A stretch of 32,145 nucleotides of DNA, taken from positions 1 through 32,145 of the forward strand of contig JAIXTK010000228.1 in the NCBI GenBank assembly GCA_027483995.1, given 5' to 3'. The position numbers and the translations under genes were made by a program. Shown piece after piece: positions 1 to 2,086 of the stretch. The stretch comes from Acetobacteraceae bacterium. Its GTDB lineage: Bacteria; Pseudomonadota; Alphaproteobacteria; Acetobacterales; Acetobacteraceae. The notes under the pieces were generated by a model. That model was not told the origin of the DNA and did not search any database. It worked only from the letters and a program-made list of their open reading frames with translations. The number at the start of each line of letters is the position of its first letter. Position 1 is the first letter of the stretch.

Positions 1-38
1 CCGTCCCGGCAGAACGCATCGTGGTTGGGGGGAAGTAA
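1..38 (+). CDS. 3' end of a D-2-hydroxyacid dehydrogenase paralogue (partial)
   Basis: Read from base 3, the + strand encodes VPAERIVVGGK followed by TAA at 36-38. This is almost the same as the C-terminus (VPAERIVVAGR) of the dehydrogenase encoded on the opposite strand just downstream, and the first 27 bases match that gene exactly in inverted orientation. The simplest reading is that the window begins inside the last codons of a second, convergently transcribed copy or close paralogue of that dehydrogenase. Only twelve codons are visible, so the function rests on this match alone. An inverted duplication limited to the gene end is the alternative. Confidence 0.55.
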   Translation, partial: VPAERIVVGGK

Positions 39-281
39 GGCCAGGGCTCTGCCCTGGACCCGGCAGGGGCGCTGCCCCTGCACCCCGCCAGGGACCTGAG
101 GTCCCTGGACCCACATCAGTTTGTTCCGCCTTCGGCGGGGGAGGGGCCATCGAGGCGGTAGAGAGACCCGGATGGCCCCTCCCCCGCCGAAGGCGGAAAA
201 GTGAAGGGGTCTGGGGCCTAAGGCCCCAGCGGGATCCAAGGGCGGAGCCCTTGGTCGGGGCCCGGGGCGGAAGCCCCGGCC
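39..281. terminator. Array of nested hairpins between two convergent genes
   Basis: This gap between two convergent stop codons is nearly all secondary structure. Three small hairpins (41-57, 63-81, 88-108) come first. A long perfect inverted repeat follows, with arms 124-151 and 171-198 and a 19-base loop. Three more small hairpins (211-229, 236-254, 262-279) close the array. The second set is the mirror image of the first, in the same order when read from the other strand. Its likely role is bidirectional transcription termination, although no U-run follows any stem. Function is inferred from position. Confidence 0.6.
124..198. repeat. 28-bp perfect inverted repeat
   Basis: Arms 124-151 and 171-198 are exact reverse complements and enclose 19 bases. 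Each arm also contains a shorter palindrome (CCGCCTTCGGCGG, at 126-138 on the left). The cruciform lies at the centre of the hairpin array between two convergent dehydrogenase genes, and the arms are the symmetry axis of the whole 1-320 region. Confidence 0.85.
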
Positions 282-1253
282 TTACCTCCCCGCAACCACG
301 ATGCGTTCTGCCGGGACGGGCTGGCCGGTGAGGTGGGCGGCGATGCATTCGGCGGCCATGAGGCCCATGTTGACCAGCGAGCCGTCGGTCACGCCCGAGA
401 CGTGCGGGGTGGCGAGCACGCGGGGGTGGGTGCGCAGGGCGTAGTCGGCGGGGGGCGGCTCGGTTTCGAACACGTCCAGCGCCGCGCCGGCGATGTGGCC
501 GCTGTCGAGGGCTGCGTGCAGGGCGGCTTCGTCGATCAGGCCGCCGCGGGCGGTGTTCACCAGCCAGCTGCCGGCCGACATCTGGGCCATGGCGGCGGCA
601 TCGATGATGTGGTGGGTCTGCGGCGCGTAGGGGCAGTGCAGCGACAGCACCTCGCTGTGGCGCAGCAGGGTGGGCAGGTCGGGCGCGGCGGCCACGCCGT
701 CGGGCAGGGCCGTGGCGCCGCCGGGGCGGCCGAGGGCCATGATGTGCATGCCGAAGGGCTGGGCGAGCAGGGCCACGTCGCGGGCGATGGCGCCGAAGCC
801 GAGCAGGCCGAGGCGCAGGCCCCTGATGTCGCGCACCTTGGTGGCGCCGCCGCGCCAGTTGCCGGCGGCGATGGTCTCGCCCAGGGCGCGGAAATCCTTG
901 GCCATGGCCAGGATCATGGCCAGCGTATGCTCTGCCACCGCGCGGGTGTTGGAGCCCGGGGCACGGGCCACCATGATGCCGCGGGCGCGGGCGCCTTCCA
1001 GGTCCACGTCGTCCACGCCCACGCCGTGGCGGGCGACGATCGACAGGCGGGCGGAGGCATCCAGCGCCGCGGCGGTGACCGGGCCCTGGCGGGTGAGGAT
1101 GGCGTGCGCCTGGACCTCGCGGGTGAGGGCCGCGACCGCTTCGGCACTGGGGTAGGGCGCCATGTAGTGGATGGTGCAGCCGGCCGCCTCCAGCACCGCC
1201 ACGGCGGGTTCGGCCAGGCGCGGGGAGGTCATGATCACGTCGAACCGGCTCAT
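282..1253 (-). CDS. NAD-dependent D-2-hydroxyacid dehydrogenase (SerA-like)
   Basis: A 323-residue protein of the D-isomer-specific 2-hydroxyacid dehydrogenase family, which oxidises D-2-hydroxyacids or reduces 2-oxoacids with NAD(P). The Rossmann motif GFGAIA is at residues 152-157. The catalytic Arg lies in NTARGG (R236), the Glu in DVFETEP (E263) and the His in TPHVSG (H284). It lacks the C-terminal ACT domain of long phosphoglycerate dehydrogenases, so calling it SerA would be too specific; a hydroxypyruvate or other 2-oxoacid reductase fits equally well. The ATG at 1251-1253 overlaps the stop of the upstream acyltransferase gene (ATGA), which fixes the start and indicates translational coupling. 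It is the last gene of a three-gene operon that ends in the hairpin array, opposite a convergent near-copy of its own 3' end. Confidence 0.85.
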   Translation of the reverse strand: MSRFDVIMTSPRLAEPAVAVLEAAGCTIHYMAPYPSAEAVAALTREVQAHAILTRQGPVTAAALDASARLSIVARHGVGVDDVDLEGARARGIMVARAPGSNTRAVAEHTLAMILAMAKDFRALGETIAAGNWRGGATKVRDIRGLRLGLLGFGAIARDVALLAQPFGMHIMALGRPGGATALPDGVAAAPDLPTLLRHSEVLSLHCPYAPQTHHIIDAAAMAQMSAGSWLVNTARGGLIDEAALHAALDSGHIAGAALDVFETEPPPADYALRTHPRVLATPHVSGVTDGSLVNMGLMAAECIAAHLTGQPVPAERIVVAGR

Positions 1254-2086
1254 GCTTCCGGCTCCCGTGTGGTGCGCTCGTAGTGCTTGAAATACTTGTC
1301 GGTGATGAGGTCGGTCTTCACCACGATGGCCACGTCCACGGTGTTGAACTGGCTGTCGATCACCGCGCCGTCGCCGACGAAGCCGCCCAGGCGCAGGTAG
1401 CCCTTGATCAGCGGTGGCAGGGCGGCCAGGGCGCGCAGCGGTGCGACCGTGGCGGGATCCAGGCGCCGCATCTCCACGTAGCGCGCGGCGACGGCGCGCG
1501 GGCGCAGCTCCGGCGGGGCCAGGTGATGGGCGTGCAGGTAGGTCAGCTCGGTGGCCAGCGCGTCGGGGTCGGTGCCCGGCAGGCTGGCGCAGCCGAACAT
1601 CAGGCCGATGCGATGGCGGAAGACATAGGCGGCGATGCCGCGCCACAGCAGTTGCATCACGGCGCGGTTGCGGTGGGCCAGGTCCACGCAGGAGCGGCCG
1701 AGTTCCATCACCTCGCCGGGGAAGGCGATCACGGCGCCAAGCTCGTATTCGTCGGCGGAGTAGAAGCCGCCGGCGCGCTGGGCCGCCTGGCTGCGGATCA
1801 GGCGGTAGGTGCCGACCACGCCTTCCGGGCCCGGGCCGATGGCGTGGTCGACCACCAGCAGGTGGTCGGCCACCGCGTCGAACCGGTCGCGGTCGCGGTG
1901 GGTGGCGCGGGTGGCGTCATCGGGGTGGGCGCCCATTTCCTCGTAGAAGATGCGGTAGCGCAGCGCCTGGGCGGCATCGATCTCGGCGGCAGTGGTGGCG
2001 ATGCGCACGCCGAGCGTGCCGCTGCGCAGCTCGCCGAAGCCGGCCTCCGGGTCGGCGGGGGCATCGAGCATGGTGGGAATGTTCAC
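1250..2086 (-). CDS. olsB: L-ornithine N-acyltransferase (OlsB family)
   Basis: A 278-residue GNAT-fold acyltransferase. It resembles OlsB, which transfers a 3-hydroxyacyl chain from acyl carrier protein to ornithine in the first step of ornithine-lipid synthesis. Family features visible are the acceptor-side stretch RYRIFYEEMGA, the central ELGRSCVDLAHRNR region, FGCASLPG, and a C-terminal segment with SQFNTVDVAIVVKTD. The start is a GTG at 2084-2086 that overlaps the Fur stop codon (GTGA); an in-frame ATG five codons later is the alternative. The gene is coupled on both sides, to fur upstream and the dehydrogenase downstream. The second ornithine-lipid enzyme, OlsA, is not in the window. 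The family call is fairly secure; the exact substrate is inferred. Confidence 0.78.
   Translation of the reverse strand: MNIPTMLDAPADPEAGFGELRSGTLGVRIATTAAEIDAAQALRYRIFYEEMGAHPDDATRATHRDRDRFDAVADHLLVVDHAIGPGPEGVVGTYRLIRSQAAQRAGGFYSADEYELGAVIAFPGEVMELGRSCVDLAHRNRAVMQLLWRGIAAYVFRHRIGLMFGCASLPGTDPDALATELTYLHAHHLAPPELRPRAVAARYVEMRRLDPATVAPLRALAALPPLIKGYLRLGGFVGDGAVIDSQFNTVDVAIVVKTDLITDKYFKHYERTTREPEA

Follow-up and report, generated by a model that had tools for sequence, protein, structure and literature searches.

A REP/BIME-like hairpin array at gene ends in a genus of Acetobacteraceae, probably inverted and kept paired by events at the DNA level

We found that the 32,145-nucleotide stretch analysed here (the window; Acetobacteraceae bacterium, assembly GCA_027483995.1, contig JAIXTK010000228.1, called C160 below) carries close to its start, at positions 41-279, a seven-hairpin palindrome that is far from a chance structure, since arrays of the same kind recur in a five-hairpin form at about 40 contig positions of its own genome (a single site may be split over two contigs). 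They are present in all nine genomes of the genus, its own included. We interpret the element as a gene-end array resembling REPs and BIMEs, in which DNA-level events, namely template switching and conversion between copies, cause inversion and maintain the pairing, and give this reading a probability of roughly 0.6.

The array in the window and its copies

Three hairpins stand on each side of a central one, which makes the element larger than first described. On the left, the common AAGG end precedes the outermost hairpin 1 (41-57, CCAGGGC-TCT-GCCCTGG), followed by hairpin 2 (63-81, GCAGGGGC-GCT-GCCCCTGC), an extra layer seen at the window locus and its orthologues, and by hairpin 3, the inner C half (88-108, CCAGGGACC-TGA-GGTCCCTGG). 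Central hairpin 4 (124-198; B type, + orientation) has perfect 28-bp arms (124-151 and 171-198) and a 19-nt loop. To its right are hairpin 5, the inner T half (211-229, CTGGGGCC-TAA-GGCCCCAG), hairpin 6, again an extra layer (236-254, CCAAGGGC-GGA-GCCCTTGG), and the outermost hairpin 7 (262-279, CCGGGGC-GGAA-GCCCCGG), after which comes CCTTAC. A covariance model of the two-hairpin half-array (R1) matches at 60-109, with hairpin 3, and at 210-258, with hairpin 5. The element end contains the stop codon (284-282) of a 2-hydroxyacid dehydrogenase gene on the minus strand (282-1253, start approximate); the gene adjoining it (1250-2086, minus strand) resembles an L-ornithine N-alpha-acyltransferase (OlsB-like), below the curated cut-off. 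An outer inverted repeat missed at first (1-48 and 272-319, 94% complementary) takes in an inverted, plus-strand copy of the dehydrogenase gene end at 1-39, the start of the contig, which matches 281-319 with two differences.

All the hairpin stems named in the preliminary description, the central 28-bp arms included, are present, and the array folds far below shuffled sequences (-202.3 kcal/mol for the RNA fold of 36-285 against a shuffle mean of -132.3; z -12.6, reached by 0 of 200 shuffles; z -13.0 on the minus strand). That description also had the same three hairpins, with compensated stems, on both flanks, which proved wrong: the halves are different hairpin types and nearly always an unlike pair. 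Among the 100 cores examined of 112, 91 have one CTGGGGCC and one CCAGGGACC half, one has two of one kind, one has two of the other, and seven are unreadable; the two like-half copies (L118, L142) are at contig ends. There was no Rfam match in the window (24 matches at E <= 1, all under the gathering cut-off and mostly generic hairpins), and the tRNA scan gave nothing useful.

Most copies have five hairpins at fixed spacing, namely outer, inner, centre, inner and outer, and 39 cores were read in the own genome. With window positions 1-330 as query, blastn returned 83 matches in the own genome, a number that includes both strands of a palindrome, and the exact core pattern matched 35 times per strand there. 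At E <= 0.001, blastn found matches in 18 of 40 genomes (the own genome included, and the weakest perhaps due to chance) and none in 16 genomes outside the family. Counts of the core pattern per strand are 25-53 for the own genome and the four genomes most closely related to it, 16-19 for G008 and one for G005; G003 and G007 have none, and there we found five-hairpin arrays with other central stems (L050, L068, L214). R1 has at least 117 matches in the own genome and at least 106-149 in each of the nine genus genomes; with stricter filters it matched 0 of 56 genomes of other families, and one further member of the family had none either. At E <= 0.01 it found nothing elsewhere in the 32-kb window. 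A half-array pattern was detected in 35 genomes of the family out of 100, among them the own genome and a congener; the reversed control pattern had two matches in total. Plasmid records gave three short matches, two in Streptomyces and one in Rhodovastum atsumiense, the latter being a two-hairpin half-array 6 nt past an annotated gene end. The many intergenic copies with covarying stems that had been predicted were therefore found, as the roughly 40 positions, the R1 matches across the genus and covariation above shuffles (see below), with similar copies favoured in the sample because they were taken from the best BLAST matches.

All the genus data appear to come from MAGs, and the protein relatives on titled contigs are MAGs too (12 of 12 titles), two of them from Lake Pavin; the host genus is uncultured and probably from fresh water, and the assemblies are probably short-read. 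By eye, small extra hairpins (e.g. GTCGCGCGAAGGCGCGCGCCGG) are visible inside array stems in L037, L106, L030, L019 and L200. Also by eye, a four-hairpin array stands directly before an atpD-like gene in L058 (G014), which suggests arrays inside the ATP synthase operon of another genus.

Position relative to genes and turnover at shared sites

The arrays sit at the 3' ends of genes. With genes taken from a simple codon-usage caller, whose calls and starts are approximate, the gaps of the 88 copies with both neighbours are tandem in 58 cases, convergent in 29 and divergent in one (34, 18 and one when counted once per site). Gene pairs without a detected core in nine stretches are tandem in 74 cases, convergent in 13 and divergent in 21; for convergent against divergent the difference has a Fisher p of 6e-7, the copies not being independent. 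With the edge of the outer hairpin set 57 nt from the core, the median distance from outer hairpin to stop codon is about 15 nt, and it is 40 nt or less in 111 of 116 cases; at 22 of the 58 tandem sites, the next predicted start is also within 40 nt of the outer hairpin. The suggestion of a bidirectional terminator agrees with this location at gene 3' ends, but a terminator scan of window positions 1-600 found no ordinary U-tract terminator there.

Both flanks match in 42 between-genome pairs from 20 sites, with a mean flank identity of 92.9%; the counts that follow are of pairs, which are not independent events. Of the 40 pairs readable for arm orientation, 23 disagree, and 13 of the 19 readable sites have at least one such difference. 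Arm orientation is effectively randomised, since random orientation would give one half, while loops are slower to turn over (orientation different in 7 of 30 pairs, type in 6 of 36). The near-constant retention of unlike halves suggests that the element inverts as a whole and that half-arms are not exchanged. Looser hand-made groups (21 groups, 66 copies), in which one-flank matches (L004, L026, L151, L154, contig-end copies) were mixed in, point the same way, with differences in 40 of 72 comparisons for arms, 17 of 65 for loop type, 15 of 48 for loop orientation and 27 of 43 for the outer pair; their baseline of about one half for the arms of copies that are not orthologous simply follows from the random orientations assigned to those copies.

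In distant congeners, whose flanks are about 74-86% identical, arrays persist at three of the four sites examined, with changes in sequence and hairpin number: the forms found are four hairpins without a central stem (G005, G008), two hairpins (G008) or a different central stem (G007). At the fourth site, G002 has 3.5 kb of other DNA and no element beside the left flank, and therefore copies are also lost or gained. A further form at those three sites is an AT-rich hairpin array, which replaces the GC-rich one in G003 and G007 (L202, L206; site of L191:3780-4030), its hairpins being TTCTTTTTG..CAAAAAGAA and GTTCTTTTTTTCAAAAAAGAAC. Two contigs, C398 (L004) and C174 (L026), join at the element flanks that belong to different sites in relatives, by recombination between copies, rearrangement or misassembly.

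The site of the window's element shows both orientations within one assembly. Contig C160 begins at window base 1 and belongs to a genome of 5.0 Mb in 501 contigs that is 89% complete. Between the dehydrogenase gene and lnt (apolipoprotein N-acyltransferase), G001 and G006 have the same element; in the own genome the lnt side is on a separate contig, C265, where the start of lnt flanks its element on both sides. Each contig has its junction in duplicate, the dehydrogenase junction on C160 and the lnt junction on C265, with the CCAGGG end in one occurrence and the CCGGGG end in the other. Bases 1-39 could be either a fold-back at the contig end or a junction that comes from strains carrying the element in reverse; for the ends of C160 and C265 we tentatively prefer a strain mixture with both element orientations over a pure software fold-back, since the mirrored arms differ by a few bases. 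In G002 the outer hairpins at the lnt-dehydrogenase site are inverted relative to G001 and G006, and the loop is not. The site is filled in G001, G002, G004 and G006 and empty in the more distant congeners G003, G007 and G008; G005 was left unscored, as the dehydrogenase itself gave no match there.

Pairing and covariation across copies

The stems are 98-99% Watson-Crick in 105 copies. The central stem has 2286 Watson-Crick pairs, 7 G-U pairs and 17 unpaired positions, the four other helices being similar, and unpaired positions in the five helices, in order, number 5 of 782, 5 of 891, 17 of 2310, 3 of 879 and 10 of 798. This count covers the 105 of 117 cores with enough flank (12 near contig ends were left out) and leans to pairing, because the best side hairpin per small window was taken and cores were found by near-complementarity.

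In an alignment of 87 rows, two-sided changes were present in 22 of 41 pairs against 5.0 in shuffles, a number that 0 of 500 shuffles reached, and covariation was above all 500 on every measure and in every slid version. These rows had been preselected for perfect hairpins (6 bp or more, two per side), a filter that 91 of the 117 cores passed and that favours the side helices, and four lnt-site rows were dropped before alignment. In alignment A1, MAFFT shifts 7-bp against 8-bp outer hairpins, and the inner and central helices alone were counted. In a separate covariation test, one of five measures (further pair types) was not above shuffles. The covariation originally proposed is therefore real when read across copies, but not between the halves of one copy.

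The earlier suggestion that the folded form is what is kept does not follow at the RNA level, given that arm and loop orientations differ at the same sites and that there is no excess of G-U on the sense strand among the few events available. Were RNA folding the main constraint, G-U would be expected to be tolerated above A-C on the transcribed strand. The non-Watson-Crick pairs on the mRNA-sense strand of the 58 tandem sites are G-U in 2 cases, A-C in 7 and others in 13 (2 against 7, p 0.18), and on the strands as stored, over all sites, G-U in 10 and A-C in 4. With so few events the argument is not decisive, and avoidance of G-U would be expected in any case from a palindrome that functions on both strands. 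Paired changes need not mean RNA selection, since template switching is reported to make multiple simultaneous paired changes and loop inversions in one step (PMC8794818).

Affinities, mechanism and alternatives

The label 'REP-like' was close to the reading we favour, in that the element works like a REP or BIME, but two of the three REP features tested are absent, and we do not file it as a REP. REPs are palindromes of 20-40 bp, in high copy number and intergenic, and here the hairpins are mostly 17-22 nt, at the small end, with more than 100 half-arrays per genome between predicted genes. None of the tabulated hairpin types (91 copies) has a GTAG/CGTC tag at the stem base; they start with CCAGGG, CGAGGG, CTGGGG, CCAAGG, GCAGGG and the like. 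Mobilisation by a RAYT was set aside: a Y1 (RAYT-like) transposase gene (PF01797) is found in three of the nine genus genomes (L096:1064-1399 on C303 of G000, L094 and L095), near another hairpin family, the C303 gene being the sole Y1 match in the own genome, and these loci of 2.9-3.3 kb lacked all the array motifs looked for. The hairpin near the Y1 gene, GTAGCCCGCATC-TT-GATGCGGGC, looks by eye like an ordinary GTAG-type REP.

BIMEs bind gyrase, IHF or Pol I, and the mosaic of several palindromic motifs that characterises them is also present here, in forms of two, four, five and seven hairpins. Gene conversion was reportedly proposed for REPs by Higgins in 1988. The RIME and ABC mosaic elements of rhizobia are likewise mosaic intergenic palindromes in Alphaproteobacteria, and we liken them to the present arrays by description only. 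According to one account (PMC3733652), REPs and BIMEs are dispersed intergenic palindromes, often paired, as here; REPs are classed by convergent, divergent or unidirectional neighbours, and CGTC repeats are reported missing in Acetobacteraceae. The present arrays differ in having a fixed layout of about 190-240 bp with 5-7 hairpins, a central stem of 24-28 bp and no GTAG/CGTC tag. For Lichenicola cladoniae, another member of the family, the available part of a RepRanger study gives 1,369 REPs in the text and 6,569 in its Table 3, also many generic hairpins near genes; in contrast to our set, these are single palindromes of at most 32 nt by default, and that part holds no analysis of arrays, orientation or orthologues (PMC12306157). 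No named family with this layout appeared in the open-library literature searched.

From its position only, we infer a role of the array at transcript ends: a strong and nearly symmetrical structure about 15 nt past the stop codon would shape or protect transcript ends, and could terminate transcription, alike in either orientation. The whole element may invert between its ends by template switching or by recombination at inverted repeats, and the central loop may invert between its 24-28-bp arms by the same routes. Conversion between dispersed copies would swap cores and keep copies alike within a species; the swaps of loop type mean that exchange between copies is needed. Copying of one arm from the other at the DNA level would keep stems perfect and yield the 'compensatory' changes. 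Hairpins maintained by template switching are described (PMC8794818) with the same simultaneous compensatory changes, loop inversions and perfect Watson-Crick stems, but in RNA genes and with loop inversions rare, whereas here loops and whole elements often differ in orientation.

A possible, clearly less probable reading is that selection on the folded transcript keeps the array, as a bidirectional terminator or 3'-end stabiliser, and produces the covariation, flipping being a harmless by-product of symmetry. The median distance of about 15 nt past stops, the 29 convergent gaps against one divergent and the folding on two strands (z -12.6 and -13.0) speak for it, and the persistence of arrays at orthologous sites in G005, G007 and G008, with sequence and hairpin number changed, would also be expected from selection for a fold. 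However, there is no U-tract terminator in window positions 1-600, at the 22 of 58 tandem sites with the next start within 40 nt a separate promoter would hardly fit, the sense strand shows no enrichment of G-U relative to A-C (2 against 7; not significant), and the whole-stem changes (G003, G007) and loop inversions look like jumps rather than stepwise change. We therefore hold DNA-level upkeep likelier than selection on an RNA fold, since the marks of template switching are present, together with those sense-strand counts, which are not decisive.

A mobile module of the MITE or REPIN kind, with its transposase acting in trans, would explain the dispersed copies and a lnt-dehydrogenase site that is filled in four congeners and empty in three, and is nevertheless quite unlikely: the Y1 transposase, found in only three of nine genomes, has a different hairpin in its vicinity, the divergence between filled and empty sites is too great for a target duplication to be read, and at other sites one position can hold an array of two, four or five hairpins, which is what turnover in place would produce. 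Flipping by a site-specific invertase, as a switch, would fit the difference in arm orientation in 23 of 40 pairs at the same sites (about half expected if random) and the two orientations in one assembly; with no recombinase linked to the element (Y1_Tnp being the sole family searched), and an array so nearly symmetrical that flipping changes little, we consider it very unlikely. Extremely improbable is an assembly artefact, which would account for fold-back ends such as 1-39, mirroring the gene end at the contig start, C265 and C157 of G004 (L149), and for the joined flanks of different sites on C398 and C174, but not for a repeat with many copies inside contigs of several genomes, in which the arms are identified no further than about 60 nt from the flank, a distance covered by a single short read.

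A bolder extension of the preferred reading, DNA-level inversion and upkeep, would make these gene-end palindromes family-wide in Acetobacteraceae, with a dedicated DNA process at cruciforms or replication forks that, inside one population, continually inverts and swaps the nested layers without moving them, structure being inherited but not sequence or orientation; we regard it as unlikely. A functional RNA is often regarded as proven by covariation; the covariation of these arrays is no proof of RNA selection. Each genome offers dozens of copies with paired changes, inverted loops and inverted arms at fixed sites, and the DNA explanation thereby becomes separable from RNA selection. The arrays are a natural counter of in-place inversion at palindromes, and they may explain the broken contigs in these MAGs.
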